DNA of 64,000 bases from Tetracentron sinense (Eukaryota; Streptophyta; Magnoliopsida; Trochodendrales; Trochodendraceae), in the NCBI GenBank assembly GCA_015143295.1, contig CM026571.1:27804505-27868504 (forward strand), in the 5' to 3' direction. Shown here piece by piece: positions 1,415 to 63,943 of this stretch. The stretch's first letter is position 1. Each line of letters starts with the position of its first letter. The notes below the pieces were generated by a model. The model did not search any database, was not told the origin of the DNA, and saw only the letters and a list, made by a program, of their open reading frames with translations. Made by a program: the position numbers and the translations under genes.

Positions 1415-1543
1415 ATGTCGACAGGTTCTGAGGGAGCAACTACTCCATTTGATGTCTGTGCTCCGAGCCCTTGGGTGGAGGAGGAGTACGTCGAGGAACC
1501 TCCAGTAGAGGGTTACCATTTGGTGGGTGTAGATTCTGAGTGA
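1415..1543 (+). CDS. LTR-embedded small reading frame (C, 5' LTR copy)
   Basis: A 42-codon frame from ATG to TGA inside the LTR. It starts MSTG, has PFDVC at residues 11-15 and PWVEEEY around residues 19-25, and is rich in Glu. Related frames occur at the matching place in LTRs C-prime, A, A2, D, E, I, J and L. Between families the differences fall mostly at third codon positions, which argues for past or present coding. I know of no named family for it. The start is uncertain: splicing at the CAG|GT at 1424 would remove the ATG. Function unknown. Confidence 0.55.
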   Translation: MSTGSEGATTPFDVCAPSPWVEEEYVEEPPVEGYHLVGVDSE

Positions 1544-2186: not shown

Positions 2187-2306
2187 CTAATGGTAACCCT
2201 CTACTGGAGGTTCCTCCAAAGGTTCCTCGGCGTACTCCTCCTCCACCCAAGGGCTTGGAGCACAGATATCAAATGGAGCAGCTGCTCTGCCATCACCTGC
2301 CGACAT
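2187..2306 (-). CDS. LTR-embedded small reading frame (C-prime)
   Basis: A 39-codon minus-strand frame, ATG at 2306 and stop at 2187-2189. It starts MSAG, with PFDIC at residues 11-15 and PWVEEEY at 19-25, and ends EGYH. It matches the frame in LTR C with one in-frame 4-residue duplication-like addition (LEEP). Frame kept despite substitutions. Function unknown. Confidence 0.55.
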   Translation of the reverse strand: MSAGDGRAAAPFDICAPSPWVEEEYAEEPLEEPPVEGYH

Positions 2307-9694: not shown

Positions 9695-10715
9695 CAACGT
9701 AAGTTGAATCGTCAAAATCCGACGAACGAGTCAAAAGATATGGCCAAAACAGTTTGGACCTGCAGACCACCGATCGCTCGGTCCATAGAGCGATCGATCG
9801 GTAGCTATCGACTGGTCAAGATTTTTGTATGGGGAAATTTTTCAGAGAGTAGATTTTTAACCGATCGCTTGGTTATGAAACCGATCGATCGGTAAGCAAC
9901 CGATAGCTCGGTATCGACCACCGATCAATCGGTGTATCGTGTTTTGTAGAAATTTCAGTAAGGGTGTTTCGGTCTTTTAGTGTTTCACTCTTTACTCATA
10001 AGGGTTGCCTGAACCTTTAGGGCTCATTTACAACACTTAGAGACATTTGAGAGTTAGAGAAAGAGGAGAGGGCGATTTCTAACCTTTCCATTTGGGGAAG
10101 AAATCAAAAGGGGTGAAGACTTAGATCAACCTCAAGCCCATTTTCTTTAAGATTCAAGCTCAAGAACTCGTGGAGCTCGTGTTCCAAGCTAGGGCAGCGC
10201 CTCACGAGCATTTTTGGAGGAGTTTTCTTCCTCATTGATCAAGGTCGGTACTTCTTGCTACCCTCCTAGTCATAGTTCCTCTTTTCCTCCATGTTTCTTT
10301 GTTTTCCTTCATCTATGCTTGTGCTATGAGTTGGGATGTGTGGATGTTGTGAATGGAGATGGAATGGGCAATTGGATGACAATGGTTGTGTTGTGATAAT
10401 TGAAATAGAGAGGGCATTGTATCCATAATGAACAAACATGTATGATGGAATTATAACCCACCTAGAAAAGCATGTTGTAGGGTTAACAAATAATGAACAT
10501 ACCATGTTTGATGGAATGCCAAGGTGAATAAAATGAATAATAAATTAAGAAAATGCATGCTTAAAGTTTATGGAAATTGTTTGGGTTATGATAGTGTGTT
10601 TTCGCGCTTTCCCTAAATTGTTTAATTTGTTACTTGTTTAAATGATGATGTGCAATGTATTGTGAAATCACCAAACATGTCATATTTAAATTCAATTGCA
10701 AGTATGAACATGACT
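9695..10715 (+). repeat. Element C 3' LTR, first part
   Basis: Forward LTR sequence beginning at the conserved block AAGTTGAATCGTCAAAATCC, through the palindrome cluster (about 9765-9935), and on to the insertion site of element A. It continues at 19618. Compared with the 5' LTR it carries an extra 25-bp-scale stretch near 10135-10160 and lacks a few bases near 10082. It ends with the duplicated target TGACT (10711-10715). Confidence 0.92.
9765..9935. promoter_or_regulatory. Palindrome cluster of C 3' LTR
   Basis: Repeated CGATCGCTCGGT and CCGATCGATCGGT half and full sites, including ACCGATCGATCGGT at about 9880-9893. They are split by the spacer TTTTTGTATGGGGAAATTTT followed by CAGAGAG. The same spacer occurs in LTRs A, E, I, J and, in looser form, in the copia-type LTR F. 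Confidence 0.65.
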
Positions 10716-10949
10716 TGTAGAGCCCCGAAATTTCATTTCACTAAGAATGAATAGTGTGTGAATAGTGCCCAAGTGTGGTTTCGTACACTTATGGGTCTTA
10801 TGTTAATATATGTGTTTGGAATTATGGCGTATATGTTCCAATGGGTCTATATGTCCTTAGGGAATGTGTTGAAAGCATAAAAGAGTGTTGGAAGTGCATT
10901 GGGGAAGATTCGAGTGGTGTAAACAAGGTTTTTCAGCAAAGCAGGGGTC

Positions 10950-11198
10950 GACCGATCGCTCGGTCATTACCTGCGATCGATCGGTCAACTACCGATCGCT
11001 CGATAGCTATCGCACGGTCAACTTTTTTGTATGGGGAAAAATTCCAGAGAGTGTGTTTTTGACCGATCTCTCGGTCATAACACCGATCGACCGGTAAGCC
11101 ACCGATCGCTCGGTCCATACCACCGATCGATCGGTCATACGCAGATTTTCTTCATTAAGGGTGTTTAAGACTTTAACCATCACCCTTTGCCTATAAAA
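10950..11198 (+). promoter_or_regulatory. Palindrome cluster and TATA box, LTR A
   Basis: Several 13-15 bp sites around ACCGATCGATCGGT (perfect copy at 11122-11135; variants with GCTCGGT and GACCGGT), split by a TTTTTTGTATGGGG spacer. About 55 bp further on is the TATA box TATAAAA at 11192-11198. The layout marks the LTR's RNA polymerase II promoter; a role for the palindromes is inferred. Confidence 0.72.
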
Positions 11199-11404
11199 GG
11201 GCAGGGTTCGTGCCTTAGGGTTTCACAAACCCTTTGTGCATTGTTTTTGAGGGATTTGAAGAAGAGAAGGAGGAGAGGACCTTGGTGATCGTTCAAGCTT
11301 GTGGAAGATCAAGTTCTTCCTTTCCATTTGGTGTTTTCCAACCAAGAACTCACTGTTCTTGCTTGTTCCAGCCATTGGGAGTCAAACTCATTGATTTCTC
11401 TAAG

Positions 11405-12154
11405 GTAGATACACTCTACTACAATCTTGCAATCCTACTAGTTACTAATTATGATTCTTCTTATCTATGCCCTATCTATATGTATTGATTTTATGTATGA
11501 AAAGGTGTGATTATATACTTGGATGAAGGTTACTATTATGATGCACTCTAAGTGTTTGATAAAATACCTCTAAGGGATTCTATGCTTAAATACGATGATT
11601 TCTCTTATTAAGTGCATATGCTCGCATGTCTCGCATAAACCGATGGTTTCCATGGATTTCTCCAAGTACAAACAAAGGTTTTTCACGAAAAGACGAATAA
11701 TGAATGATTCTAAGTAACTCTATGATTTCTCTAAGATCATTTCACAAGCTCTAAGGATCATACCATGCTCACAAGGAAACTCTATGATAATGCTCTAAGA
11801 TCGTCTCACAAGCTCCACGGATCACAATGAAATGCTCTAAGATCTCTAAGGTTATGCTCTATGGAAATGCTCTAAGGTTATTGCTCTATGCTCTATGTCT
11901 CTACGGATCATAATGACTCTAAGTAACTCCATGAACTCACAAGAACTCATAAGGCTATGATTATCGATTGACTCACACGGTTACAGTTTTGGTTTCGAAT
12001 ATTATCTCACATACGTTTTCACGGTTTCCATGCTTTAAGGAATTTACGGATTTCATTCTCCATGTCTTGTATGCTCCATGCCTAACCGCTTTATTGTTAT
12101 TAGTTTGTATACACTGAGTATTCCATGCTCAGTCGATATTGTTATGATCGGCAG
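11405..12154 (+). other. Candidate leader intron, LTR A
   Basis: Donor TCTAAG|GTAGAT about 200 bp after the TATA box; acceptor ATCGGCAG|GT at 12154; 750 bp. The matching donor and acceptor are kept in the Tekay LTRs C, C-prime, D, E, I, J and L although the sequence between them has diverged strongly. Splicing would remove a long leader with many ATGs. Confidence 0.55.
12113..12133 (+). other. Conserved LTR hairpin (A)
   Basis: Stem ACTGAG/CTCAGT with loop TATTCCATG. The outer pair is A-T here but G-C in LTRs C, D, E and I, a compensatory change that supports the RNA fold. Confidence 0.65.
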
Positions 12155-12288
12155 GTGCTCGGGTTCCATTCGATTTGTGTGGCGAAGAACCTTGGGTCGA
12201 GGAAGAGTACCGTGACCCGGAGCCTTCCATGGATCACTATCATGACGATGGTGCTTTAGATAGGAGTCGTGACTTCGATTTCTGTTGA
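12154..12288 (+). CDS. LTR-embedded small reading frame (A, 5' LTR)
   Basis: A 44-codon frame ending in TGA at 12286-12288. It contains VPFDLC, PWVEEEY, PSMDHY, DDGALD and ends DFDFC. LTR J keeps the same length and pattern; L keeps EPWIEEEY and DDGALD and ends DYC. There is no in-frame ATG at its start: a TGA lies three codons upstream, so it must be entered by splicing or non-AUG initiation, or it is a relic. The coding signal is therefore better supported than the start. Confidence 0.5.
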   Translation, partial: GARVPFDLCGEEPWVEEEYRDPEPSMDHYHDDGALDRSRDFDFC

Positions 12289-12594
12289 TCGACCGACTTA
12301 GAACTTGTGTCTTTTGTTATGTGAGTGTGGGGTTTGTCCACTCCACTTTTGGGTTTCTCACACATGTATACTTGTTGGTTCTTACTTGAGCCAAGTTATA
12401 GGAGTATTCATTTTGCTTCCGCTATGTTAGTATTTTATTTTCCGCTGTGCATTGTATTTCGTTTCCGCTATGTATATTCAGGTACTCTGACAGGTTTCCA
12501 CGTGTGCCTTATGTATCATACTTGAGGTATGATATGGCGGTCACGAGTCAAAGTACCCTTAACTCCTAGGGGGTATTTTGGGTCGCGACAGACT

Positions 12595-12606
12595 TGGTAT
12601 CAGAGC
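12595..12606 (+). other. Primer-binding site, element A
   Basis: TGGTATCAGAGC four bases after the 5' LTR, complementary to the 3' end of initiator Met tRNA. Confidence 0.9.
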
Positions 12607-12958
12607 TAGTTATGTCTAACGACAGACTTAGTTAGGTCACTCAGGCTTGGCCCAAGCGGAAGTAATTCCTATGAGTTGAACTTAGAACTCAGAAGGACTC
12701 AGTTGTCTTAGGCTTGTTACCACGACATAACCGGTACCAAGTGAATCCTTAGGTCAGTATAGGATCCGAGATCGATGTGATCCTATGCGAGGTTCTAGTA
12801 TAGGCTCTAAAGTATGATTATATGATGATATATATATACCTCGATGTATACTATGTGCGGTATAGCATTTCATGATTATTGAATTGCTATATGATATGTG
12901 AGGTTTGGTATCCAAGTTAGACTCATGTTTTGCCAAATTGATCTCAGGATTCGATATC

Positions 12959-14175
12959 ATGAGACGTGGCAATCGGGGTCGAGGGTTACCATACTCGGAG
13001 GGCCGAGAGTGAAGTTCTGAGAGAAGAGGAACTGTTGTATTTCACAAATGCTATGGACTCCATAGCCGAGACTTTGGCATTGTTGGCAGCGAGGCCTATG
13101 CCTACCCCACCGTCCACGCCTGTGCCTACACCGGTGCAGCACACCGCGGGGCTCGAAGCTTTTAGGAGACTGCGGCCTCCTACATTCTATGGCACTCTGG
13201 ACCCTATGGTGGCCGAGTCTTGGATTATGCAGCTGGAGAAGACCTTCCGGGCTCTCCGTTGTACCGATGAGCAAAGGGTAGAATGGGCTTCCTTCGTGAT
13301 GGAAGGTGAAGCCGAACACTGGTGGAGAGCTGCCCAAAGGCAGAGGGATGTTGCTAAGGCAGGTGTGCCCTGGACTTGGGCGGAGTTCTTAGAGACTTTC
13401 AGGGAACAGTACTTTCCCAGGTTTATTCGGGAACAAAAGGCGAGAGAGTTTATGCTTTTGGAGCAAGGGTCGATGAGCGTAGCCGAGTATGAGGCTAAGT
13501 TCACCGAGTTGTCTAGGTTTGCTCCGCACTTGGTGGCTACTGAAGATCTACAGGTCAGGAAGTTTGAGATGGGCTTGAAGGCTTTCATCCGAGATCGGGT
13601 GTCCATTCTCCAGGTAGAGTCTTGGAGAGAGATAGTAGGGAAGGCGAAGATCGCCGAAAAGAATGCGGAAGACTTTGTGAGAAGAAGAGACAGTGGCTTC
13701 GGGAAGAGCATGTCTCGGGGTCAGTCGAGTAGTTCTTCAGAGAAGAGGACTAGGACTGCACCGTACCAGTTCTCCCAGCCGATGTCAGCTCAGAGACCTT
13801 CTTTTGCGCCTCAGGCACCGCGTCCTACGGCATCGCAAGCTACGAGGGTTATGCCTCCGGCTTCCTCCGCATCGCAGACATTTGAGGAGTGCGCCGTATG
13901 TGGTCATCGGCATAAGACTGGAGATTGCCGAAGAATGTCAGGTGGATGCTTCCACTGTGGCGAGATGGGCCATATGATTCGAGATTGCCCGCGCAAGCAG
14001 TCACAGTCTGGATCACAGGGAGTTCGGCCTCCAGGCAGGCAGAATTCACTTCAGGGGTCTTCATCTCAGGCCTCTAGATCCTTGCAGCCTACCCAGTAGC
14101 CTCGTCAGGCGAACCAGGGCAGAGTCTTTGCCATGACTGATAGAGACGCACAAGCATCTGATGATGTTGTGCAAG
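12959..14175 (+). pseudogene. gag: Element A gag
   Basis: Gag of about 405 codons with the start MRRGNRGRG. The capsid-like region spans roughly residues 50-215 (motifs EHWWR and PWTWAEF), followed by a Ser-rich linker and a knuckle region with CFHCGEMGHMIRDC near residues 330-343. One extra G near 12986-12988 relative to the sister copy A2 shifts the frame after nine codons; beyond it the frame is open to a TAG at 14097-14099. Downstream codons continue to a candidate splice donor at 14175|14176. Role: virus-like particle formation and RNA binding. Confidence 0.92.
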
Positions 14176-14313
14176 GTACGCGCGAACTAGTCTTTGTCGA
14201 AGTTCTAATATTGCCATGATATGTTCGTATCTATATATATCCTATGTGGTGTTTTACGATGTTTGTATCTATATGTATAGTTGTGTTATAACTGGGAGGA
14301 TTCAAATTCTCAG
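14176..14313 (+). other. Candidate gag-protease intron, element A
   Basis: 138 bp, GT...AG: donor GCAAG|GTACGCG, acceptor AAATTCTCAG|GT, with TTATAACT as a possible branch point about 20 nt before the acceptor. It is phase 1; removal joins gag (VVQ-G) to pol ([16 protein letters not shown]) in frame. If retained, the frame ends at a TGA about 16 codons into it. Confidence 0.75.
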
Positions 14314-17300
14314 GTTCGTTGCTCGTAAATGAATGTTTGGCAAGAGTGTTGATAGACACAGGATCCACTCACTCGTTCGTTTCACCAAGCTTTGCCAAAA
14401 GCTTTACGTCCGAGCCAAGCAAGCTACCTAGGGAGTTGTCCATTTCGACTCCATTGGGAAAATCTATTGAGACAGATAAAGTGTATCCGGATAGTGTTGT
14501 ACAAGTCATGCAGCACGAGTTGCCAGTCGACTTGATCCTTCTGGGATTTCAGGATTGGGATTTCGATGTCATCCTAGGTATGGATTGGCTCTCAACTCAC
14601 CATGGACACGTGGCGTGTTTCGAGAAGGTGGTGCATTTTAAACCCATGGGGTTAAAGCCGTTTCATTTCAGGGGACTTCAGAGAAGAGACATTGCCCGCT
14701 TTGCAGCTCTTAGTCTCGAGGGTGTAGAAGTGCGAGACTCCACACCCATTCCGGTGGTATGTGAGTATATGGATGTTTTTCCGGAAACCTTGCCGGGATT
14801 GCCTCCCGATCGTGCAATCGAGTTTGCGATTGAGCTAGCTCCAGGCACAGTTCCGATTTCAAGAGCTCCGTATAGGATGGCCCCTATTGAGCTTAAGGAG
14901 TTAAAAGAGCAGTTAGAAGAATTGCAAGGCCTTGGTTTTATCCGGCCAAGTGTTTCACCTTGGGGAGCTCCGGTTCTCTTCGTGAAGAAGAAAGATGGAT
15001 CAATGCGTATGTGCATTGATTACAGGCAATTGAACAAGGTCACGATCAAGAATCATTATCCATTGCCTCGGATAGACGACTTGTTTGATCAATTGAAGGG
15101 TGCGCAGTTTTTCTCCAAGATTGACCTTCGATCTGGTTATCATCAGTTGAAGATCAAGAAAGAGGACATTCCGAAGACAGCATTCCGAACTCGATACGGT
15201 CATTACGAGTTTTTGGTCATGTCTTTTGGACTAACTAACGCGCCGGCAGCATTCATGGATTTGATGAATCGGGTGTTTAGATCGTCTCTCGATCAATGTG
15301 TGATCGTGTTCGTAGATGATATCCTTGTGTATTCACAGTCACAGGAGGATCACACGAGAGATCTCCGTCTGGTATTGCAGACACTTCGAGAGCATAGTCT
15401 GTATGCTAAGTTGAGCAAGTGTGAGTTCTGGCTGAACAAGGTGTCTTTTCTTGGACACGTGGTATCTGCTGAAGGTATTTCAGTTGATCCTGCAAAGATT
15501 GAAGCGGTGATGAATTGGGAAAGGCCGAAGAGTGTCACCGAGATTCGTAGTTTCCTCGGGTTGGCAGGATATTACAGAAGGTTTGTGGAAGGATTTTCAA
15601 GTTTAGCAGCTCCGCTTACTTATCTCACACGGAAGAACATGAGGTTCACTTGGAGTGATAAGTGCGAGGCTAGTTTCTTGGAGTTGAAAAAGAAGCTTAC
15701 TTCGGCTCCTGTTCTCACAGTTCCATCTGGGAGCGGTGGTTTCAAAGTCTATAGTGATGCTTCACTAGTGGGACTTGGATGTGTTTTGATGCAGCATAAA
15801 AAGGTGGTCGCCTATGCTTCCCGTCAGCTGAAGGAGCATGAGCAGAATTACCCCACACATGACTTAGAGCTCGCTGCGGTCATTTTTGCACTGAAACTTT
15901 GGCGTCACTACCTCTACGGAGAAGAGTTCGTGGTGTTCACAGACCACAAGAGCTTGAAGTATCTTTTCCTCTAGAAGGAGTTGAATATGAGGCAGCGTCG
16001 TTGGATGGAGTTCATGAAGGACTACGACTGTTCCATCCAGTACCACCCGGATAAGGCTAACGTGGTAGCCGATGCTCTTAGCAGAAAACCTTACGGAGTT
16101 ATGGCTCAATTGAGAGTGCAAGAGTGGAAGTTATTACATGATATGTGTCATTTGGACACTACTCTCAGGCATGTCACCTATGGGCCGATAATGTCCAACG
16201 TGGTGGTTAGGCCACAGATCCTGAGCCAGATCAAGGTGTTACAGAATTCAGATGTTGAGTTGCTTGCTTACCGAGACAAGTCGGTGAGTAACGGCAATCA
16301 GGAGTTCGCTTTAAATGATGATGGTGCTATCACATTTAAGGGCAGGTTGTGTGTCCCCGCCGACACAGTTTTGAGGGATGAAATTTTGAATGAAGCTCAC
16401 CGATCAAAGTACACGGTACATCCGGGAGGTACTAAGATGTACCAGAATCTCAAGAAGCACTACTGGTGGCGGAACATGAAGAGGGAAGTCGCTGAGTACG
16501 TCGCCAGATGTTTGATTTGCCAGCAGGTAAAAGCCGAACATCAAAGGCCGGCAGGTCTTTTGCAGTCTCTTCCTATTCCGGAGTGGAAATGGGAGAACAT
16601 CTCGATGGATTTCATTGTGGGTTTGCCGCGAACGGCGAAGGGCTCCGATGCTATTTGGGTGATTGTGGACAGGTTGACTAAGTCTGCAGATTTTATTCCG
16701 TACCGAACTACTTTCAATGCAAATCAGTTGGTAGCCCTATATGTTAAGGAGGTGGTTCGACTGCACGGTGTGCCAGTTTCTATCGTGTCTGATCGAGATC
16801 CTCGGTTTACTTCCAGGTTTTGGAAAACTTTCCAGGATGCTATGGGTTCTCGTTTAGAATTCAGTACCGCCTTCCATCCTCAGACCGATGGACAAACGGA
16901 GAGGGTGAATCAAGTAGTGGAGGATATGCTCCGAGCTTGTATGCTGGATTTTCAGGGTAGTTGGGAGGAACAGTTGCCGTTGGTTGAGTTTGCCTACAAC
17001 AATAGCTATCAGGCAAGCATCCAGATGGCACCTTTTGAAGCTCTGTATGGTCGGAGTTGTCGATCACCGCTATACTGGGATGAAGTTGGTGAGAGGAAAA
17101 TTCTTGGTCCTGAGTTGATAGAGCGGACCGCAGAAAGGGTCAAAATTATCCGGGAGCGATTGAAAAGTGCTCAGGATAGGCAGAAGAGCTATGCGGATAT
17201 ACGCCGCAGAGATTTAGAGTTCCGAGTTGGAGATCGGGTCTTTGTGAAGATTTCGCCGAGTCGGGGAATCATGCGATTCGGGAAGAAGGGAAAGCTCAGT

Positions 17301-17645: not shown

Positions 17646-17721
17646 TTTTCCTTGTTAGTTTTGTGTGTATTTTGTTCTTGTTATGTTTTTGGCATCGTTC
17701 TAATTTCGAGGACGAAATTCT

Positions 17722-17737
17722 TGTAAGGGGGGAGGGA
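17722..17737 (+). other. Polypurine tract, element A
   Basis: TGTAAGGGGGGAGGGA directly before the 3' LTR start at 17738; primes plus-strand DNA synthesis. Confidence 0.88.
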
Positions 17738-19612
17738 TGTAGAGCCCCGAAATTTCATTTCACTAAGAATGAATAGTGTGTGAATAGTGCCCAAGTGTGG
17801 TTTTGTACACTTATGGGTCTTATGTTAATATATGTGTTTGGAATTATGGCGTATATGTTCCAATGGGTCTATATGTCCTTAGGGAATGTGTTGAAAGCAT
17901 AAAAGAGTGTTGGAAGTGCATTGGGGAAGATTCGAGTGGTGTAAACAAGGTTTTTCAGCAAAGCAGGGGTCGACCGATCGCTCGGTCATTACCTGCGATC
18001 GATCGGTCAACTACCGATCGCTCGATAGCTGTCGCACGGTCAACTTTTTTGTATGGGGAAAAATTCCAGAGAGTGTGTTTTTGACCGATCTCTCGGTCAT
18101 AACACCGATCGACCGGTAAGCCACCGATCGCTCGGTCCATACCACCGATCGATCGGTCATACGCAGATTTTCTTCATTAAGGGTGTTTAAGACTTTAACC
18201 ATCACCCTTTGCCTATAAAAGGGCAGGGTTCGTGCCTTAGGGTTTCACAAACCCTTTGTGCATTGTTTTTGAGGGATTTGAAGAAGAGAAGGAGGAGAGG
18301 ACCTTGGTGATCGTTCAAGCTTGTGGAAGATCAAGTTCTTCCTTTCCATTTGGTGTTTTCCAACCAAGAACTCACTGTTCTTGCTTGTTCCAGCCATTGG
18401 GAGTCAAACTCATTGATTTCTCTAAGGTAGATACACTCTACTACAATCTTGCAATCCTACTAGTTACTAATTATGATTCTTCTTATCTATGCCCTATCTA
18501 TATGTATTGATTTTATGTATGAAAAGGTGTGATTATATACTTGGATGAAGGTTACTATTATGATGCACTCTAAGTGTTTGATAAAATACCTCTAAGGGAT
18601 TCTATGCTTAAATACGATGATTTCTCTTATTAAGTGCATATGCTCGCATGTCTCGCATAAACCGATGGTTTCCATGGATTTCTCCAAGTACAAACAAAGG
18701 TTTTTCACGAAAAGACGAATAATGAATGATTCTAAGTAACTCTATGATTTCTCTAAGATCATTTCACAAGCTCTAAGGATCATACCATGCTCACAAGGAA
18801 ACTCTATGATAATGCTCTAAGATCGTCTCACAAGCTCCACGGATCACAATGAAATGCTCTAAGATCTCTAAGGTTATGCTCTATGGAAATGCTCTAAGGT
18901 TATTGCTCTATGCTCTATGTCTCTACGGATCATAATGACTCTAAGTAACTCCATGAACTCACAAGAACTCATAAGGCTATGATTATCGATTGACTCACAC
19001 GGTTACAGTTTTGGTTTCGAATATTATCTCACATACGTTTTCACGGTTTCCATGCTTTAAGGAATTTACGGATTTCATTCTCCATGTCTTGTATGCTCCA
19101 TGCCTAACCGCTTTATTGTTATTAGTTTGTATACACTGAGTATTCCATGCTCAGTCGATATTGTTATGATCGGCAGGTGCTCGGGTTCCATTCGATTTGT
19201 GTGGCGAAGAACCTTGGGTCGAGGAAGAGTACCGTGACCCGGAGCCTTCCATGGATCACTATCATGACGATGGTGCTTTAGATAGGAGTCGTGACTTCGA
19301 TTTCTGTTGATCGACCGACTTAGAACTTGTGTCTTTTGTTATGTGAGTGTGGGGTTTGTCCACTCCACTTTTGGGTTTCTCACACATGTATACTTGTTGG
19401 TTCTTACTTGAGCCAAGTTATAGGAGTATTCATTTTGCTTCCGCTATGTTAGTATTTTATTTTCCGCTGTGCATTGTATTTCGTTTCCGCTATGTATATT
19501 CAGGTACTCTAACAGGTTTCCACGTGTGCCTTATGTATCATACTGGAGGTATGATATGGCGGTCACGAGTCAAAGTACCCTTAACTCCTAAGGGGTATTT
19601 TGGGTCGCGACA
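17738..19612 (+). repeat. Element A 3' LTR
   Basis: 1,875 bp, same length as the 5' LTR, with about five substitutions seen (for example TTCGTAC against TTTGTAC near the start and GACAGG against AACAGG near the end). Palindromes at about 17970-18162, TATA box at 18214-18220, candidate intron 18427-19176. Followed by the duplicated target TGACT. Confidence 0.96.
19176..19310 (+). CDS. LTR-embedded small reading frame (A, 3' LTR)
   Basis: Same as the 5' LTR copy at 12154-12288: VPFDLC, PWVEEEY, DDGALD, end DFDFC, TGA at 19308. No in-frame ATG at the start. Confidence 0.45.
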   Translation, partial: GARVPFDLCGEEPWVEEEYRDPEPSMDHYHDDGALDRSRDFDFC

Positions 19613-20619
19613 TGACTTCCATGAGCACGGCATGCATGACATGATTTATCGTATTTTGAAGAACATGATTAGAGGTGGGACATATCCTACGATATGTTTT
19701 ACCTTGCTTTTCACAAGAAAACAAGAACAAACATTCCACGAGGGGTCTCCCCTCACTCACAAGTGCATAACATAAAGAAGGGCCTCCCTTCCCTCGCAAG
19801 TACATACATATCATGAAGAAGGGTCTCCCTTCCCTCTCAAGTCATCTCACAAGCGCATCTCACAAGTACATCTTACAAGTGTATCTCACAAGTTACATGA
19901 TCGCAAGCAAGCACGCATAACATGCATGACATGACACGATATACAAGAATCAAGCAAGATAGACAAGACGAGTTTTCAAGCACTAAAATGGTACTTTAAG
20001 TAAAGTCAAGTGCACGGTGTTTTCAAGGGTTTTATCGGCTTTTATGAATGCAAGCATGATTATATACTTCTTTACTTTATTGTTATAATATGAATTATTC
20101 CTGCTTTATATGTGTGAATTGTTTCCTGCTTTATGTATCGCTATCTGTATGCTATGACTGTTGGTTAGTATTTGGTACACGCTGAGTATTCCATGCTCAG
20201 CCGTACGTTTATGTCGGCAGGTTCTGAGGGAGCTGCTACTCCATTTGATGTCTGTGCTTCGAGCCCTTGGGTGGAGGAGTACGTCGAGGAACCTCCAGTA
20301 GGGGTTACCATTAGGTGGGTGTAGATTCTGAGTGACATAGCTGTGGGTGAGTTGAGAGAGATGTCTCCATGTATTTTAGCTGGCATGTCCGCACTTTCTT
20401 TTGGTTTCCTTTTTGTATAAACTTGGATTTACGTATGTATAAACATAGAGGTTTGGTAGACTTCTGTTGTACCATGTTAGAGTATGTTTCTGCTGTTTTT
20501 ATCCTCTATTGTATATGCTCTGTGGGTTTTGCAGGTTGGTTTGTCAAGTAAGTCATGCAAGCCAGGATTAGTCGTCCAAGATTCACTCTAACTCCTAGGG
20601 TGGGTCTCGGGTCGCGACA
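19613..20619 (+). repeat. Element C 3' LTR, second part
   Basis: Continuation of LTR C after element A (first five bases TGACT are the target duplication). Ends GGGTCTCGGGTCGCGACA at 20619. Contains the CTCACAAG-rich stretch, the hairpin GCTGAG/CTCAGC near 20181-20201 and the small reading frame. Confidence 0.93.
20211..20324 (+). CDS. LTR-embedded small reading frame (C, 3' LTR)
   Basis: ATG at 20211, starts MSAGSEG, has PFDVC and PWVEEY (one Glu codon lost in frame). A small deletion shifts the tail after EEPPV, ending at a TAG at 20322. A decaying copy of the frame at 1415-1543. Confidence 0.4.
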   Translation: MSAGSEGAATPFDVCASSPWVEEYVEEPPVGVTIRWV

Positions 20620-21935: not shown

Positions 21936-22076
21936 TCAACAATAATCGAGGTACGGCCACACATCAAGGTCTCTATCCACTTGAGACTGTAATGGGATAG
22001 ACGGCTCTCTCTCCTCCACGTACTCTTCCTCGACCTAAGGCTCAGAGTCGAGGGCTTCCCCGGTACCTGCCGACAT
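21936..22076 (-). pseudogene. LTR-embedded small reading frame (E)
   Basis: Minus-strand frame from ATG at 22076 (MSAGTGEAL) to TGA at 21936-21938, ending VWPYLDYC. An in-frame TAG at 22035-22037 replaces the Trp of the PWVEEEY motif. The tail REPSIP...VWPYLDYC matches LTR D, with many synonymous-looking differences. Confidence 0.5.
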
Positions 22077-25244: not shown

Positions 25245-25550
25245 TGACGATCAATCTCCACATGGCGACGATGGATCATTACGAGCCTAGAAACCTGGAC
25301 AATGTACTGGAACTTAGATGATCGATCATCCAAAACTCAACGATCGATCGCCCTGAACCCAGAAATTTGATGGCTTTCAGGAAGCTGGACGATAGATCGC
25401 CTGACGATCGATTGTCTGGAGATAGGAATCTGGGCAAGTTTACGAGAGTGTGGACGATCGATCATCCCAAGATCGACGATCAATCGTCATCGCGGAACTC
25501 TGTTTTTTTTAAGACCCGAAAATAAGGGTTTCCACCCTTTCCTATATATA
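25245..25550 (+). promoter_or_regulatory. Palindromes and TATA box of LTR D
   Basis: Repeated GACGATCGATCATC/GCC sites, with a perfect core CGATCGATCG at 25341-25350, followed by the TATA box at 25543-25550. Arms (ACGA-TCGA-TCGT type) differ from those of A and C. Confidence 0.65.
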
Positions 25551-27037
25551 GAAAGCATTTGAGGCTTTTGGGGGGTTTAACCTAAACCTAAGGGAGAGGA
25601 AAGGAGCGAAAGAAAATGAGAGATTTGGGGATTCCAAGAAGGGTTTGGATTGAAGAAGAAGGAGGATTTCATCCAAGATCAAGGGAGAAGAGGGTTTGAT
25701 CTACCCCAATCAAGCATTCTTCAACCAAGGGTTCTCCTCTACTGTTGGGGTTTCCAATCCAAGGTTTTTCTTCAAGATCAAGCCTTGATCTCAAGGTTAG
25801 AACACCCTACTAACTCACCTAGCAATAACCTAGGGTTTTCTTTTGAGAATGATGAATGATTCTTGTGTTCTTTCCTTTTCTTGCAATATACCATCTTCCC
25901 TAAATATAAACAAGATAAATAAAAAAGTAGAGGATGTAGGGATGGATGTGGTTAAGGTGATTGGATGCCGTATTATGTGGTGAATGTTGTGTGATAGAGA
26001 ATTGTGGATGGGCATTTCAAGCATAATGAATACACTTTATGTGGTTTGATGAAAGGTATGTACTAAGAAAGTGAAATGAAATGACTATGAATGTGTTGCC
26101 CGCCATGTGTTTGACAAAATACCTAAACGAGAATTTAAGGGATTTAAGGAAAAAGATGAAAGTAGGCTTTATGTAATTTTTCCTAAAAATGATAAGTTGA
26201 TCAAATGCTCTACATGTTATCTACATTCCCACATGCTTATATTAGAAATTGAAATGTTATACTCAAGTGATCCTTTTACTCAAGCATGTCATCATGTTTA
26301 CTACAAATGTTACACACAGGCACACATGCATACATGAATCGGTTTTCTAAAGTATATGTATATGCTAAATCAAACAAGAACAAGAATTGTGATTCACGTT
26401 ATGAATGATAAAACCAGACATCGGGCCGGTCAAGGGTAGGGCATATCGCAAGTTATGTCATACCTGGCTCACAAGGAAAACAAGCATGAATGATAAAGCC
26501 GGACATCGGGCCGATCAAGGGTAGGGCATATTGCAAGATATGTCATACCTGGCTCACAAGAAAACAAGACAAGGAGGTTGGTGTACCATTTTCTATATAT
26601 ATATTTCGTTGAAGGAAACTTACGTTCCCGACTCACAAGTCGCTTCAAGGGCACTAACCTCTGACTCACAAGTATACAAGCAAGTCAAGTCAAGAATATG
26701 ACAAGAACAAGCGAGACAAGTTATTCCAAGCAAGACAAGATACATGTGTGATTCTTACGAACGAGACCAAGATAAGAACAAGTTTTCAAACATGACACAC
26801 AAGTTTTGAAATTAACACGAAAGACTACTTTCAAGACTAAAACATGACTTTCAAAGTATGAGTTTTACCGGAGTTTTTGCATTCATCCAAGTATGTCAAG
26901 ATTATTACATTGCTTTACTTTTAATGCTATGAATGTCATATCTTGCAATTATATCATGTTGCCTTTGTGTGATTGTTATTACTATGGTTAGCTAGTAGCT
27001 TGTACTCGCTGAGTATTCCATACTCAGCTGTACTTTT

Positions 27038-27175
27038 ATGTCGGCAGCTACCAAGGATGCCCTCAACCCTGAGCCTTGGGTTGAGGAGTGTGTAGAGGAG
27101 AGAGAACCTTCTATCCCAAAGCAGTTGCAGGAGGATAAAGATCCCGACGTGTGGCCGTATTTAGATTACTGTTGA
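27038..27175 (+). CDS. LTR-embedded small reading frame (D)
   Basis: ATG at 27038 (MSAATKDAL), EPWVEE, REPSIP, end VWPYLDYC, TGA at 27173; 45 codons. Closest to the frame in LTR E. The acceptor here is GGCAG|CT rather than CAG|GT. Confidence 0.5.
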   Translation: MSAATKDALNPEPWVEECVEEREPSIPKQLQEDKDPDVWPYLDYC

Positions 27176-35909: not shown

Positions 35910-36168
35910 TCGACCGGTCGACCGCTCTAAGGACCGATCGACTGGTGGCTTACCGCTCGACCGCTGATATGACCGATCGACCGCTGGCCTACCGGTCGAC
36001 CGCTCTAACCACCGGTCGACCGCTATCGTACTAACTATGTATGGGGTTATTTTCCAGAGAGGGTCTTTTGGACCGATCGACCGCTCCCTTACGAATTTGC
36101 TTGGTTTGGTCTTTTTAAGCAGATCACTAAGGGTATGATGGTCTTTGACCTCCCCTTTTCTATATAAA
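35910..36168 (+). promoter_or_regulatory. GGTCGACCG palindromes and TATA box, LTR I
   Basis: Seven or more GATCGACCG/GGTCGACCG sites between 35910 and 36085, two of them perfect CGGTCGACCG, split by a TATGTATGGGG...CCAGAGAG spacer, then TATATAA at 36161-36167. Confidence 0.66.
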
Positions 36169-37468
36169 CCCAATTTCAGGGTTGAGGGTTTCACAAACCC
36201 TCAATCATGCATTTTAGAAGAGTGAGAGAGGAGAAAAGGAATTTCTAAACCTAGGGTTTGCATTTGAGGATAAATCAAAGGGTTTGAAGACCCTAGATCA
36301 CCTCAAGCTTGGATTTCTTCAAGTTCACGGCTCAAGCACTTGAGGAGCTCGTTCTCCAAAGCTAGGGCAGCATTCAACCTTGGCTCTTGCAAGGGTTCTC
36401 TTCTTTCTTCAAGGTCGGTACCTTTTGCTACCCTCCTAGTCATGGTTTTCTCTTTTCCTTCCTTATTCCTTGTTTTCCCTCATCTATACCTATGCTATGA
36501 GTTGGTATGTGCAAAAGGAGATGGTTGTTGGGCGAAGGATGCCAAGTGAATGTGATGTGATGAATGAAATGGGGAGGGTATTGTGCCAATAATAAACATA
36601 CATGGATGTTGTGAATATAAACCCACCTAGAAAAGCAAAGTGTAAGATTTAACAAATAATGAACACACCACTTGTTTGATGAAATGCCAAGGTGAAGAGA
36701 ATGGGTTGTAAATCTAGAACTGTATGCTTATGGAATTTCTAGGGCTTATGATAGTGTGATTGTTTGCTTTCCCTAAATTGCATGAATAATTACTTGCTCA
36801 ATAAATGATGTTCTATGTATTGTTAAAATCCCCAAATGTCATATTTAATTTCAAATGAAAGTATGCACACGATTCCACGAGCATGGCATGCATGACATGG
36901 TTTACCGAGGTTTTCATGATTCAGGTTTAGAGGTGGGACATATCCTATGATATGTTTTACCTCGCTTTTCACAAGAGGACAAGAAAAAATATTTCATAGG
37001 AGGGGGTTTACACTTCCCTCCATCCCATGAGGGGTCCCCCCCTCTCACAAGAGCATATCATGAAAGAAGGGTCTCCCTTCCCTCTCAAGTGCATATCATG
37101 AAAGAAAGGTCTCCCTTCCCTCTCAAGTGCATCTCACAAGTACATGAGCATGTTAAATCCCAAGCAAGCACGCATGACACACATGGCATGACACGCTAGA
37201 CAAAACCAAGCAAGATAAACATGACAAATTTTCAAACACGCAACGAGTATTTTAAGTCAAGTCAAGTACACAATGATTTCAAGAGGTTTATCGGCTTTTA
37301 TGTGATGCCAGCATGAATATAAAATGCTTTACTTCCTTGTTATTATATGAATTGTTTCCTGCATTATAATATGAATTGTTTTTTGCTTTATATTTTGCTA
37401 TTGTTATGCTATAACTGTTGGTTAGTATTTGGTTCCCGCTGAGTATTCCATGCTCAGCCGTACTTCTT

Positions 37469-37576
37469 ATGTCGGTAGGTGATAACGGAGCGGCTGTGCC
37501 TTTTGATATTTGCGTGTCAGGCCCTTGGGTAGAAGAAGAGTACGTTGAGGAACCTTCGGTAGAGGGCTATTACTAG
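37469..37576 (+). CDS. LTR-embedded small reading frame (I)
   Basis: ATG at 37469 to TAG at 37574; 35 codons. MSVGDNGAAVPFDIC then PWVEEEYVEEP, end EGYY. Close to LTRs C and C-prime at the protein level, with different third positions (for example GTA GAA GAA against GTG GAG GAG). Confidence 0.55.
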   Translation: MSVGDNGAAVPFDICVSGPWVEEEYVEEPSVEGYY

Positions 37577-42009: not shown

Positions 42010-42144
42010 TCAACAAAAATCAAAGTCAAGCCTTTTATCCAGTGATCCATCATCCTGATAATGGTCCATAGAGGGCTCCAGATCATAGTAGTCTTCCTCT
42101 ATCCAAGGCTGCGTGCCACAGACATCAAATGGAATACGTGCACC
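42010..42144 (-). CDS. LTR-embedded small reading frame (J)
   Basis: 44-codon minus-strand frame, same length as in LTR A, with IPFDVC, QPWIEEDYY, EPSMDHY, DDGSLD and end DFDFC, TGA at 42010-42012. Differences from A are mainly synonymous or conservative. No ATG at the start. Confidence 0.5.
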   Translation of the reverse strand, partial: GARIPFDVCGTQPWIEEDYYDLEPSMDHYQDDGSLDKRLDFDFC

Positions 42145-48475: not shown

Positions 48476-50350
48476 TGTAGAGCCCCGGAATTTCATTTCA
48501 CTAAGAATGAATAGTGTGTGAATAGTGCCCAAGTGTGGTTTTGTACACTTATGGGTCTTATGTTAAAATATGTGTTTGGAATTATGGCGTATATGTTCCA
48601 ATGGGTCTGTATGTCCTTAGGGAATGTGTTGAAAGCATAAAAGAGTGTTGGAAGTGCATTGGGGAAGATTCGAGTGGTGTAAACAAGGTTTTTCAGCAAA
48701 ACAGGGGTCGATCGATCGCTCGGTCATTACCTGCGATCAATCAGTCAACTACCGATCGCTCGATAGCTGTCGCACGGTTAACTTTTTTGTATGGGGAAAA
48801 ATTCCAGAGAGTGTGTTTTTGACCGATCTCTCGGTCATAACACCGATCGACCGGTAAGCCACCGATCGCTCGGTCCATACCACCGATCGATCGGTCATAC
48901 GCAGATTTTCTTCATTAAGGGTGTTTAAGACTTTAACCATCACCCTTTGCCTATAAAAGGGCAGGGTTCGTGCCTTAGGGTTTCACAAACCCTTTGTGCA
49001 TTGTTTTTGAGGGATTTGAAGAGGAGGAGGAGAGGTCCTTGGTGATCGTTCAAGCTTGTGGAAGATCAAGTTCTTCCTTTCCATTTGGTGTTTTCCAACC
49101 AAGAACTCACTGTTCTTGCTTGTTCCAGCCATTGGGAGTCAAACTCATTGATTTCTCTAAGGTAGATACACTCTACTACAATCTTGCAATCCTACTAGTT
49201 ACTAATTATGATTCTTCTTATCTATGCCCTATCTATATGTATTGATTTTATGTATGAAAAGGTATGATTATATACTTGGATGAAGGTTACTATTATGATG
49301 CACTCTAAGTGTTTGATAAAATACCTCTAAGGGATTCTATGCTTAAATACGATGATTTCTCTTATTAAGTGCATATGCTCGCATGTCTCGCATAAACCGA
49401 TGGTTTTCATGGATTTCTCCAAGTACAAACAAAGGTTTTTCACGAAAAGACTAATAATGAATGATTCTAAGTAACTCTATGATTTCTCTAAGATTGTTTC
49501 ACAAGCTCTAAGGATCATACCATGCTCACAAGGAAACTCTATGATAATGCTCTAAGATCGTCTCACAAGCTCCACGGATCACAATGAAATGCTCTAAGAT
49601 CTCTAAGGTTATGCTCTATGGAAATGCTCTAAGGTTATTGCTCTATGCTCTATGTCTCTACGGATCATAATGACTCTAAGTAACTCCATGAACTCACAAG
49701 AACTCATAAGGCTATGATTATCGATTGACTCACACGGTTACAGTTTTGGTTTCGAATATTATCTCACATACGTTTTCACGGTTACCATGCTTTAAGGAAT
49801 TTACGGATTTCATTCTCCATGTCTTGTATGCTCCATGCCTAACCGCTTTATTGTTATTAGTTTGTATACACTTAGTATTCCATGCTCAGTCGATATTGTT
49901 ATGATCGGCAGGTGCTCGGGTTCCATTCGATTTGTGTGGCGAAGAACCTTGGGTCGAGGAAGAGTACCGTGACCCGGAGCCTTCCATGGATCACTATCAT
50001 GACGATGGTGCTTTAGATAGGAGTCGTGACTTCGATTTCTGTTGATCGACCGACTTAGAACTTGTGTCCTTTTGTTATGTGAGTGTGGGGTTTGTCCACT
50101 CCACTTTTGGGTTTCTCACACATGTATACTTGTTGGTTCTTACTTGAGCCAAGTTATAGGAGTATTCATTTTGCTTCCGCTATGTTTAGTATTTTATTTT
50201 TCCGCTGTGCATTGTATTTCGTTTCCGTTATGTATATTCAGGTACTCTGACAGGTTTCCACGTGTGCCTTATGTATCATACTGGAGGTATGATATGGCGG
50301 TCACAAGTCAAAGTATCCTTAACTCCTAGGGGGTATTTTGGGTCGCGACA
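48476..50350 (+). repeat. Element A2 5' LTR
   Basis: 1,875 bp, TGTAGAGCCCCGG to GGGTCGCGACA. Small compensating indels against A (3 bases lost near 49020, single bases gained near 50070 and 50190). Palindromes about 48710-48900 (perfect copy 48882-48895), TATA 48952-48958, candidate intron 49162-49911. The hairpin stem is broken (CTTAG). Confidence 0.95.
49911..50045 (+). CDS. LTR-embedded small reading frame (A2, 5' LTR)
   Basis: 44 codons, same as A: VPFDLC, PWVEEEY, DDGALD, end DFDFC, TGA at 50043. Confidence 0.45.
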   Translation, partial: GARVPFDLCGEEPWVEEEYRDPEPSMDHYHDDGALDRSRDFDFC

Positions 50351-54270: not shown

Positions 54271-55243
54271 CTCGCATGTCTCGCATAAACCGATGGTTTT
54301 CATGGATTTCTCCAAGTACAAACAAAGGTTTTTCACGAAAAGACTAATAATGAATGATTCTAAGTAACTCTATGATTTCTCTAAGATCGTTTCACAAGCT
54401 CTAAGGATCATACCATGCTCACAAGGAAACTCTATGATAATGCTCTAAGATCGTCTCACAAGCTCCACGGATCACAATGAAATGCTCTAAGATCTCTAAG
54501 GTTATGCTCTATGGAAATGCTCTAAGGTTATTGCTCTATGCTCTATGTCTCTACGGATCATAATGACTCTAAGTAACTCCATGAACTCACAAGAACTCAT
54601 AAGGCTATGATTATCGATTGACTCACACGGTTACAGTTTTGGTTTCGAATATTATCTCACATACGTTTTCACGGTTTCCATGCTTTAAGGAATTTACGGA
54701 TTTCATTCTCCATGTCTTGTATGCTCCATGCCTAACCGCTTTATTGTTATTAGTTTGTATACACTGAGTATTCCATGCTCAGTCGATATTGTTATGATCG
54801 GCAGGTGCTCGGGTTCCATTCGATTTGTGTGGCGAAGAACCTTGGGTCGAGGAAGAGTACCGTGACCCGGAGCCTTCCATGGATCACTATCATGACGATG
54901 GTGCTTTAGATAGGAGTCGTGACTTCGATTTCTGTTGATCGACCGACTTAGAACTTGTGTCTTTTTGTTATGTGAGTGTGGGGTTTGTCCACTCCACTTT
55001 TGGGTTTCTCACACATGTATACTTGTTGGTTCTTACTTGAGCCAAGTTATAGGAGTATTCATTTTGCTTCCGCTATGTTTAGTATTTTATTTTTCCGCTG
55101 TGCATTGTATTTCGTTTCCGCTATGTATATTCAGGTACTCTGACAGGTTTCCACGTGTGCCTTATGTATCATACTGGAGGTATGATATGGCGGTCACGAG
55201 TCAAAGTATCCTTAATTCCTAGGGGGTATTTTGGGTCGCGACA
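54271..55243 (+). repeat. Element A2 3' LTR, right half only
   Basis: 973 bp matching 49378-50350; the first 902 bp, including promoter and palindromes, are deleted. Contains the hairpin, acceptor and small reading frame. Confidence 0.93.
54804..54938 (+). CDS. LTR-embedded small reading frame (A2, 3' LTR)
   Basis: 44 codons identical in pattern to the other A-type copies; TGA at 54936. Confidence 0.45.
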   Translation, partial: GARVPFDLCGEEPWVEEEYRDPEPSMDHYHDDGALDRSRDFDFC

Positions 55244-57869: not shown

Positions 57870-58032
57870 TGCCATTTCGGCGACGAAGTGTGCCGGGGGG
57901 ATTGATTTCGTCGACGAATTCAACTCGAAAATGGCCAAAAACGTCCAGTAATGAGCTGTAACTCAACACCAACCTTGGGGGATATTTTTCTAAGATATTT
58001 TGAGATATTTGGCAGCCTTTAGGCTATAAATA
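57870..58032 (+). promoter_or_regulatory. TTCGTCGACGAA palindrome and TATA box, LTR L
   Basis: One perfect 12-bp TCGA-centred palindrome (57907-57918) and a related GGCGACGAAGTG site near 57879, then TATAAATA at 58025-58032. In the 3' LTR the palindrome is broken by one transition. Confidence 0.55.
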
Positions 58033-58741
58033 GGGTCTAAATTTCGTGTATAAGGGTTACCAAATCATTGAATGTCATTGAGAGAGAGATTGAAGAACAA
58101 GAAGAAGAGAAACCTTGTTCCATTCCAACTGTTCTGCCCCAAGCTCAAGTGAGGTTTCAACCTTGTCAAGCTTTCTTCCTTTAGTGTTCTTGAAGAAGGG
58201 GGTTTTCGAACCCAGATTTTCCCAAGCTTCAACCAAGCTTTCCTCAAGCTTGATTCTGATCCACAGAAGTGTAAAAACTTCCTTGTAAGGTAGATATAAT
58301 CTACTATCTAGCAATGTTATGAATTCACTTTGTTATTCACTTTATGATGTTTCCTATAAAAGAAATCCTCTATGTTTAAGAAAGTTTAGATTTCTATGAT
58401 GTATGATACTTTATACATATGCCTCAATGCTATTAAGGTATTTTATGATTTCCATGATACTCACAAGAGATATATGTTATGTTTAAGAGATTCTAAGTCT
58501 AACATGATACTCAAAGTTCTCACATGTTATATTCCAAGTCTTCAAAGGATTACGCTATTATGTCAAAATGTTTTCTAAGTCTATCAAGATGTTCACAAGT
58601 CTCATATGTACACTAGTCTCGCATGAATCGGATTTCTCACAAGTTGGATGTTTTCAAAATTCTTAAGAAATGTTTAAGAAAACCTCATAAGAACTCACGA
58701 GTGATTTTACGGGATCATAGATGCTCACAAGTATCTCAAAA

Positions 58742-59206: not shown

Positions 59207-59332
59207 GGTTTTGTGGACTCACCTGCTCCTGAGCCTTGGATAGAGGAGGAGTACTATGAGCCTGAGCCTGCTATGGTTCACTACCAAGATGATGGAGCTC
59301 TAGATAGGGGGGCCTATCTAGACTATTGTTGA
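59207..59332 (+). CDS. LTR-embedded small reading frame (L, 5' LTR)
   Basis: 41 codons from GGT to TGA at 59330: EPWIEEEYYEPEPAM, DDGALD, end AYLDYC. The frame is open upstream to an ATG at 59087, reading through the hairpin. Combines the tail of D/E (YLDYC) with the middle of A/J (DDGALD). Confidence 0.5.
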   Translation, partial: GFVDSPAPEPWIEEEYYEPEPAMVHYQDDGALDRGAYLDYC

Positions 59333-61533: not shown

Positions 61534-63943
61534 TGTAGAGCCCCAGAATTTAGGTTCACTGTTCATGTGAATAGTACTGTGAATAGTGTTGTGAATAGCG
61601 CCTTCAAGGCCTAAAGCCTTAATGAAATTGTGGGTTCATATTTTATAATGAAAGGAGGTATTGAATGAATCAAAATATGTATGGAAAGTGTTTTGGGGGT
61701 TTGGGATAAATGAAAAGTGATAGTATGGTATACTCTAAGTGTCAAAGAAAGGAATGCACAAACATACCCTCAAATTTGAAGAGCTATAGAATTCTCACCG
61801 CTGATCCGAATCAAGTGATTCTTGAATTTTTTGAAAGGTATTGAAACCCTCTTCGAGGTTCATGTTTACCACTTTTCTAGATTTTGAGTAAAATTTGGGT
61901 CAAATGTCAGATTTCCACAAACTGGTCTGCTGTAAATTTTGATCTGCTGAAAGTCATCCCAAGACCAGTCCACTTGTGGGCCCATTTAGATCACTTAGAA
62001 CTCAAAATTAGGCTTTGTACAAAACATGAAAGTTGTAGCCCTTTGAAAGAAAAATCCAATACAAGTTGAATCGTTAAATTTGGATAACTGAGTCAAAGGT
62101 TATGGTCAAAATACCAAAATAGGAAAACAAGGCCCAGGCAGAGTGCCATTTCGGCAACGAAGTGTGCTGGGGGGTTGATTTCATCGACGAATTCAACTCA
62201 AAAATGGCCAAAAACGTCCAGTAATGAGCTGTAACTCATCACCGACCTTGAGGGATATTTTTCTAAGATATTTTGAGATATTTGGCACCCTTTAGGCTAT
62301 AAATAGGGTCTGAATTTTCTGTATAAGGGTTACCAAATCCTTGAATGTCATCGAGAGAGAGATTGAAGAAGAAGAAGAAGAGAAACCTTGTTCCTTTCCA
62401 CCTGTTCTTCCCCAAGCTCAAGGGAGGTTTCAACCTTATCAAGCTTTCTTCCTTTAGTGTTCTCAAGCTCACAAATCATCACTAAGGTGATTTCAAAGTT
62501 TGGAATTTCTCCACAGGAATTCTGTTCGTGTCCTTGAAGAAGGGGGTTTTCAAACCCAGATTTTCCCAAGCTTCAACCAAGCTTTCCTCAAGCTTGATTC
62601 TGAGCCACAGAAGTGTAAAAACTTCCTTGTAAGGTAGATATAATCTACTATCTAGCTTTCTTATGAATTCACTTTGTTATTCACTTTATGATGTTTCCTA
62701 TAAAAGAAATCCTCTATGTTTAAGAAAGTTTAGATTTCTATGATGTGTGATACTTTATACATATGCCTCAATGCTATTAAGGTATTTTATGATTTTCATG
62801 ATACTCACAAGAGCTATATGCTATGTTTAAGAGATTCTAAGTCTAACATGATACTCAAAGTTCTCACATGTTATATTCCAAGTCTTCAAAGGATTACGCT
62901 ATTATGTCAAAATGTTTTCTAAGTCTATCAAGATGTTCACAAGTCTCATATATACACTAGTCTCGCATGAATCGGATTTCTCACAAGTTAGATGTTTTCA
63001 AAATTCATAAGAAATGTTTAAGAAAACCTTATAAGAACTCACGAGTGATTTTACGGGATCATAGATGCTCATAAGTATCTCAAAATCTCATGCATATCTC
63101 ACAAGGCATTCATATCTCGTAAGGCATCATTCATATCTCACAAGGCATCATTCATATCTCACAAGGCATTCATCTCTCGCAAGTCATCATTCATATCTCA
63201 CAAGGCATCATTTATATCTCTCAAGGCATTCATATCTCACAAGGCATCATATGTGGCTCACACGACTCATAAGAACTCATAAGTACTCATAAGCACTCTT
63301 AAGATACATTTTGTTTTTACAAAAGCTCAAAAGATAAGGTTTAAAAAGTTATGCACTTGTAAAAGTATGATTTCCAAGTTCGGTTTAAAGCATGAAATAT
63401 GAATTGTTAACCCTCTATGTGCTCGCATGATATTGTGACTTTATGACACTGTTAGCTAGTATTTTGTACCCATTGAGTATTCCATGCTCAGCCAAATTGT
63501 TGACTTCGGTAGGTTTTGTGGACGCACCTTCTCCTGAGCCTTGGATAGAGGAGGAGTACTATGAGCCTGAACCTGCTATGGATCACAACCAAGATGATGG
63601 AGCTCTAGATAGGGGGGCCTATCTAGACTATTGTTGAGGGAAATGAAGGAGAAGGTCTTGTATTTTGAAAGTGGGAAATGTCCACTTTAGATTATATATT
63701 TTAAGAGTATTGAGGGTGGGACTTGTCCACTTCATACTTAAAGTTACGGTGTTCTATGGTTCAAACTTGAACCTAATGATAGGAGTACATTATGTTGAAT
63801 TGCTTCCGTTTATCTCCAGTGCATATATATCGATGTATTTTATCATGTGGTATGTATGTCTTATGTGTTATAGAGGATTGTACGATACGGCGGTCATGGG
63901 CTAAAGTATCCCTAACTCCTAGGGGGTATTTTGGGTCGTGACA
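61534..63943 (+). repeat. Element L 3' LTR
   Basis: 2,410 bp, TGTAGAGCCCCAG to GGGTCGTGACA. Differs from the 5' LTR by an about 71-bp segment present only here (about 62462-62532), two fewer array units and scattered substitutions. Candidate intron 62634-63512. Confidence 0.93.
63512..63637 (+). CDS. LTR-embedded small reading frame (L, 3' LTR)
   Basis: 41 codons, EPWIEEEYYEPEPAM, DDGALD, end AYLDYC. Differs from the 5' copy at a few codons. Confidence 0.5.
   Translation, partial: GFVDAPSPEPWIEEEYYEPEPAMDHNQDDGALDRGAYLDYC

Follow-up and report, generated by a model that had tools for sequence, protein, structure and literature searches.

A short acidic reading frame conserved inside the LTRs of Ty3/gypsy retrotransposons of Tetracentron sinense as a probable terminal coding exon

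Judged from codon-level comparisons, a short acidic reading frame inside the long terminal repeats (LTRs) of several retrotransposon families of Tetracentron sinense is under purifying selection as a protein, from just past a conserved YAG to the stop codon and not beyond. Our preferred reading, which we hold with moderate confidence, is that the frame, within the LTR, forms the final coding exon of a small acidic accessory protein belonging to a chromodomain Ty3/gypsy lineage (presumably the one labeled Tekay/Del-like). Such an exon would be terminal because it ends at TGA in families A, J, L, D, and E and at a TAG that comes sooner in Cm and I. The exon appears to fit better than a stand-alone micropeptide because A and J lack an in-frame ATG and because constraint begins at the acceptor-like YAG. 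The original prediction proposed a micropeptide or an exon; that reading is supported, with the exon half now favored, and we note that in C, D, E, and I the frame could instead start at an ATG three codons before it.

The window, meaning the whole 64,000-nucleotide stretch that was analyzed, holds 13 copies of the frame in the following putative exons.

1424..1543 (+), C1 exon, running beyond the stop position of Cm and I
2187..2297 (-), Cm exon
12155..12288 (+), A1 exon, from GT GCT CGG.. to TGA, the G at 12154 being the final YAG base
19176..19310 (+), A2 exon, in the 3' LTR of element A
20220..20324 (+), C2 exon, with deletions and a shifted end
21936..22067 (-), E exon, a decayed copy with an in-frame stop
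27047..27175 (+), D exon
37478..37576 (+), I exon
42010..42144 (-), J exon, giving with A a clean ungapped contrast
49911..50045 (+), A3 exon
54804..54938 (+), A4 exon, in a truncated LTR
59207..59332 (+), L1 exon
63512..63637 (+), L2 exon

All 13 frames first listed for this DNA read back and translate as claimed. The list is also complete for the window: a 245-column nhmmer model of the LTR block, trained on 11 of the 13 LTR copies, returned exactly 13 matches in the 64 kb (E 1.3e-56 to 1.1e-44), at the same 13 sites and none extra. The frames do share one LTR position, the distance from frame end to LTR end being 272-309 nt in the eight LTRs measured; for D, where the LTR ends is uncertain, as the match to the end profile is weak (E 1.5e-5). 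The claim that several distinct LTR families are involved agrees with nucleotide identities between family LTRs of only 58-81% (A/J 58%, E/D 61%, C1/I 75%, C1/Cm 81%). The long tail of C1 (HLVGVDSE) lies past the position at which Cm and I have their stop. One C-type LTR is split into 9871-10716 and 19610-20619 by the insertion of element A (10716-19612), and the C1 and Cm LTRs end head to head with ∼50 bp between them (1833-1881).

The case for selection is carried by three independent between-family contrasts, A/J, D/E, and C1/I. Third codon positions account for 53 of the 93 differences inside the frame (p 2.4e-6 over the three contrasts), versus 13/36 in the 66 nt before it and 23/67 in the 66 nt past the stop, so that divergence across codon positions is unequal, as anticipated for a coding sequence in the original prediction. 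In the ungapped A/J comparison, the exon differences fall 8, 5, and 22 on the first, second, and third positions. By the NG86 method, dN is 0.16 with dS saturated for A/J, and dN and dS are 0.20 and 1.89 for C1/I and 0.17 and 1.03 for E/D. A ratio near 1, which had been named as evidence against the idea, is therefore not what is seen between these families; it is near or above 1 only in the closest copies (L1/L2 1.04, C1/C2 1.08, C1/Cm 1.67, with few changes each). This is as expected of dead copies, selection being visible between families. The NG86 ratio is higher in some distant-lineage pairs, with a maximum of 0.73 (C2/J). When alignment columns were permuted (7 family representatives, 141 columns), the observed third-position excess was reached in 0 of 100,000 trials. 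A blind 90-nt scan of whole LTRs placed the frame as the top window in 7/9 family pairs, the exceptions being C1/Cm, whose best windows are tied elsewhere, and L/E; the scan found no further coding exon elsewhere in the LTR, though short exons would escape it. The other two sense frames are interrupted by stops in 8/9 copies, and one frame of E is open. Periodicity and the dN/dS signal are thus confined to the frame and its ends, which bears out the earlier claim of coding selection on an acidic peptide or exon. The accompanying claim that the surrounding LTR is far less conserved stands for the 66 nt downstream (40% differences vs 25% in the frame) but not for the 66 nt upstream, which differ by only 18% and do so without codon periodicity.

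The same pattern is found beyond the window. A peptide search of the 1.16-Gb assembly with L, A, and I queries (150 scored matches each) gave 15,945, 25,440, and 25,078 first-look candidates, respectively, which are not equivalent to confirmed copies; the D, E, J, and Cm results are those of the window copies alone. Among loci chosen by protein score, a choice that biases dN low and makes the window contrasts the cleaner evidence, dN/dS of the frame is 0.124 in the I type vs 1.32 and 1.14 in the other frames (29/30 loci, one dropped for length) and 0.307 in the L type vs 0.64 and 2.06 (27/30 loci, three dropped for length). The proposed genome-wide comparison with the other two frames accordingly favors the frame in both types. 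Differences among the 29 I-type loci fall 44/39/185 on the three codon positions. The 150 A matches listed have a 100% identical peptide, and in 148 of them the open frame is only 46 codons long.

The sequence immediately before the frame has two features, given here for the A1 LTR.

12113..12133 (+), palindrome with a 9-bp stem and a 3-nt loop, ∼20 nt before the acceptor-like site
12145..12154 (+), acceptor-like TGATCGGCAG/GT (slash, putative junction), with an in-frame TGA two codons upstream

A YAG precedes the frame in 13/13 window copies, followed by GT in 12 of them and by CT in D, and YAG/GT stands at the frame start in 87/90 genome loci, the 30 A loci among these being near-identical. 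It is at this conserved YAG, a 3' splice-site signature, that constraint on the frame begins. Nothing before it is held in frame, because codon periodicity is lacking upstream and because the phase of the ATG in the hairpin formed by the palindrome varies (offset from the frame modulo 3: A 2, J 0, L 1, E 0, C2 0, Cm 1, I 1). A YAG/GT with no held phase upstream looks like a 3' splice site at a phase-1 exon; by eye, the polypyrimidine tract and branch point at this acceptor look weak. The palindrome-bearing 66 nt adjoin the YAG, and the stem is broken in J. Pair counts for covariation in the palindrome are not above those of shuffles, and an RNA-family search gave no match. A start codon in the hairpin, or a frameshift from it, was considered and is ruled out by the varying phase between families.

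An in-frame AUG start is not common to all members. Family A has no in-frame ATG in 4/4 window copies and 30/30 fetched loci, and J has none, with a stop five codons upstream of the frame; as the original prediction had it, these are the only two window families that lack one. In C1, C2, Cm, D, E, and I, an in-frame ATG stands three codons ahead of the frame; in L1 and L2, the distance is 23 codons. At the genome level, an in-frame ATG lies within the open frame in 27/30 I loci and 15/30 L loci, being absent from the other 15/30 L loci. Direct translation is therefore excluded only for A and J. The sequence MSAG, which we considered as a universal start, is impossible for A and J and could serve C, D, E, and I; even there translation may begin elsewhere, given that the families do not keep a common reading phase ahead of the YAG. 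The missing ATG of A and J and the stop within E had been raised as objections to coding. Both facts hold, but as objections they are answered by the exon reading and by the decay of E, respectively.

Promoter-like and 5' splice-site-like sequences are found farther upstream in the LTRs.

11192 to 11405 (+), A1 LTR, TATA box at 11192 to 5' splice-site-like AAG/GTAGAT with its GT at 11405, a candidate untranslated first exon
43080 to 42871 (-), J LTR, TATA box at 43080 to 5' splice-site-like AAG/GTAGCT at 42871
58025..58290 (+), L1 LTR, TATA box to 5' splice-site-like AAG/GTAGAT
62298..62634 (+), L2 LTR, TATA box to 5' splice-site-like AAG/GTAGAT
25543..25796 (+), D LTR, TATA-like CTATATATAG to 5' splice-site-like AAG/GTTAGA
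36161..36414 (+), I LTR, TATA-like CTATATAAA to AAG/GTCGGTACC

A canonical TATA box lies in the 5' third of the LTR in A, J, and L and a TATA-like sequence in D and I; none was found at the corresponding place in the E LTR, and the C1 LTR is cut by the window edge. Because these TATA boxes are upstream in the LTR, transcription probably starts ahead of the frame. The 5' splice-site-like sequence follows 209-336 nt past the TATA, as AAG/GTAGAT in A and L and as variants in J, D, E, and I, and its GT is kept in 29/30 A loci and 26/30 L loci. From TATA+25 to this sequence, A1 has no ATG. Taken together, the TATA box and the conserved 5' splice-site-like sequence in the A, L, J, D, and I LTRs imply a long R/U5. 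It is possible, though we put it forward only tentatively, that each LTR is a self-contained spliced microprotein gene, with a TATA promoter and a leader exon poor in AUGs, followed by an intron several hundred bases long and the acidic exon. If so, many LTRs, solo LTRs included, could make a trans-acting regulator, which could aid expression of the family or its escape from silencing.

In the preferred exon reading, a transcript from the LTR promoter would be spliced into the YAG acceptor, and an upstream exon ending in phase 1 would supply the start codon. For the I and C type, the best candidate for that exon would be an ATG four-codon run at a conserved 5' splice-site-like motif ∼790 nt upstream, at the positions below.

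36679..36692 (+), I candidate start exon end, ATG of the four-codon run plus G^GTGAAG, in phase 1 with the exon
618-631, counterpart in C1
10511-10524, counterpart in the second C LTR
3129-3116 (minus), counterpart in Cm

This candidate site is 788 nt upstream of the exon and is present in 23/30 I loci, or 24/30 by a looser pattern. In a conservation scan of ∼1.57 kb of the I type, it is the fifth most conserved non-overlapping 17-mer, ranking behind two windows in the palindrome block, one at the acceptor, and one where the exon begins. Three points count against this candidate: it would need an acceptor before it, and none was identified; a related motif in A, D, and E lacks both the GT and an ATG at the matching position; and in another frame the site spells a short VFD-like string. 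The motif around 36676-36692 is close to TGTTTGAYRAAATRC and is common to several families, including the A, D, and E LTRs; one of its frames reads VFDKIP, a string that we take to be reminiscent of PPR repeats. Among 15 diverse L/A/J sequences, no place upstream is conspicuous (the highest value more than 100 nt upstream is 0.79, vs 0.96 at the palindrome), and in a scan within L the copies are too alike (median 0.93). No start exon conserved across all families was found. A start exon in R/U5 with the initial residues ML was promising in C1, in L1, and in some A copies and failed in the 30 A loci, where its phases are 2, 1, and 0 in 15, 6, and 2 loci, with 2 lacking a start and 5 lacking a donor. 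A search for spliced retrocopies of A gave 0 matches with one pattern that covers part of the possible junctions.

For A, J, L, D, and E, a gag-start exon spliced into the 3' LTR is a possible start. An acceptor-like block ending in YAG stands 8-11 nt before the gag ATG in A, L, C, and K.

12948..12959 (+), A1 stretch from acceptor-like CTCAG/ to the gag ATG (12959)
60098-60107, 4836-4846, and 21056-21064, the counterparts at the other gag ATGs

Because an acceptor-like YAG precedes the gag ATG in these four families, the sequence suggests that a leader intron, PBS included, is spliced out for the gag mRNA.

A coding start within gag, in which the RG-rich gag start is spliced to the 3' LTR acceptor to give a Gag-headed acidic protein, is a sub-case of the preferred explanation that we consider improbable. 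It has a parallel in retroviral accessory genes read from the 3' end, and the Sag protein of mouse mammary tumor virus illustrates that an LTR can encode protein (PMC11998498). The Gag start MRxGxRGRG in A, L, C, and K offers, at its Gly codons, phase-1 G/GT sites of the phase that the exon needs; this phase, however, is automatic from Gly codons, and no strong 5' splice site common to all families was found at the gag start. A less improbable reading, but still an unlikely one, is a conserved-peptide uORF in an unspliced leader, translated before gag from a nearby ATG (non-AUG in A and J) and exerting its effect either in cis, on ribosomes, or in the form of a free micropeptide. The frame is downstream of the LTR TATA boxes, so a leader placement is possible, the in-frame ATGs of C1, C2, Cm, D, E, and I and of many I and L loci would provide starts, and the hairpin adjoins the frame, uORFs and stem-loops in plant pararetrovirus leaders serving ribosome shunting (PMC5902531). 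Set against this, A and J have in-frame stops 2 and 5 codons upstream in place of an ATG, and the ATG-less A is an abundant family with identical peptides. The variable phase of the hairpin ATG and the lack of codon periodicity upstream of the YAG also argue against it, and the hairpin precedes the frame, whereas a shunt uORF ends ahead of its stem.

We regard as very improbable that the constraint is on nucleotides, as an RNA or DNA element, with the protein pattern as a by-product. The adjoining 66 nt are even more conserved than the frame and have the palindrome within them, but in-frame differences fall on third positions, stops interrupt the other sense frames in all but one copy, and the I type has dN/dS >1 in those frames. 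That the pattern comes from ascertainment, or from a single capture of a host-gene fragment that is now decaying, is scarcely credible. The copies do form one sequence family, and the genome loci were found with protein queries; the window set, however, was tested without protein ascertainment, and the frame is kept between families that are 58-75% identical, with no Pfam or PDB relative.

The carrier is best defined for element A, whose ORFs match Retrotrans_gag, RVP_2, RVT_1, RNaseH, Integrase_H2C2, and Chromo (27.5 bits, cut-off 25.1), with an rve match below the cut-off; the other families are linked to A by DNA similarity only. A primer-binding site TGGTATCA[AG]AGC follows directly after frame-bearing LTRs at 1833, 12595, 50355, and 59643, and we take its tRNA to be tRNA-Met. 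The exon part of the predicted product has 32-44 residues and a pI of 4.05-4.11, with a PW(V/I)EE core, aromatic residues among Asp/Glu, and a C-terminal Asp-aromatic-Cys in A, J, L, D, and E. AlphaFold gives the exon peptide a mean pLDDT of 64, mostly disordered with one short helix. Searches of Pfam (8 members, E<=1) and the PDB gave no match, no homologous proteins were found in a database that may hold few plant proteins, and viral contigs yielded no relatives. By analogy, and tentatively, the product might work in trans as an accessory regulator through short-motif binding, for example, to transcription or silencing machinery.

Plant retroelement RNA splicing is reportedly documented, with leader or gag introns in Ogre and BARE; splicing would be shared with these elements, for which the accounts consulted show no protein exon inside the LTR. 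The exon peptide is much shorter than Sag, and Pfam (E<=1, 8 members) and PDB searches revealed no Sag homology. In position, Sag is the nearest precedent, being an LTR-encoded retroelement protein under purifying selection (PMC11998498), and it differs in being a type II membrane protein from an animal retrovirus, compared with an exon of 32-44 acidic residues here. Plant pararetrovirus leaders likewise combine a short frame and a hairpin in the RNA of a reverse-transcribing element; in contrast to their shunt uORF, which ends before the stem, the frame here comes after the hairpin and has no AUG in two families (PMC5902531). Searches of open-access literature turned up no plant LTR protein like this frame, and the earlier statement that no Tekay LTR protein of this kind has been described agrees with that literature and with the accessible part of the review PMC7264820. 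That part does describe additional ORFs (aORFs) of plant LTR retrotransposons, for example, Grande gene23, RIRE2, Retand, and env-like ORFs, which are placed internally, in most cases after pol and before the 3' LTR; spliced expression is described there for the env-like ORF of Bagy2. Like the aORFs as presented in that part, the frame is conserved at the protein level beyond gag-pol in a plant LTR element, with a function that we can here only propose; unlike them, it is inside the LTR rather than the internal region, so that it is present in both LTRs, and it is apparently an exon and not a whole ORF.

LTRs are usually annotated as regulatory DNA. If the protein exon is real, a gene is being overlooked in repeat annotation, solo LTRs may be sources of protein, part of LTR conservation is coding, and the exon would give a direct handle on self-regulation of an abundant plant retrotransposon lineage.

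Other LTR sequences recur as well. Units of CTCACAAG are scattered in the presumed intron, at -386, -349, and -218 from the exon in the A LTR and in other families too. The LTR 3' end (12478-12592 and counterparts) is conserved, with a second palindrome of the GTATCATAC..GTATGATA type and an acceptor-like GACAG/G ∼100 nt before the LTR end.
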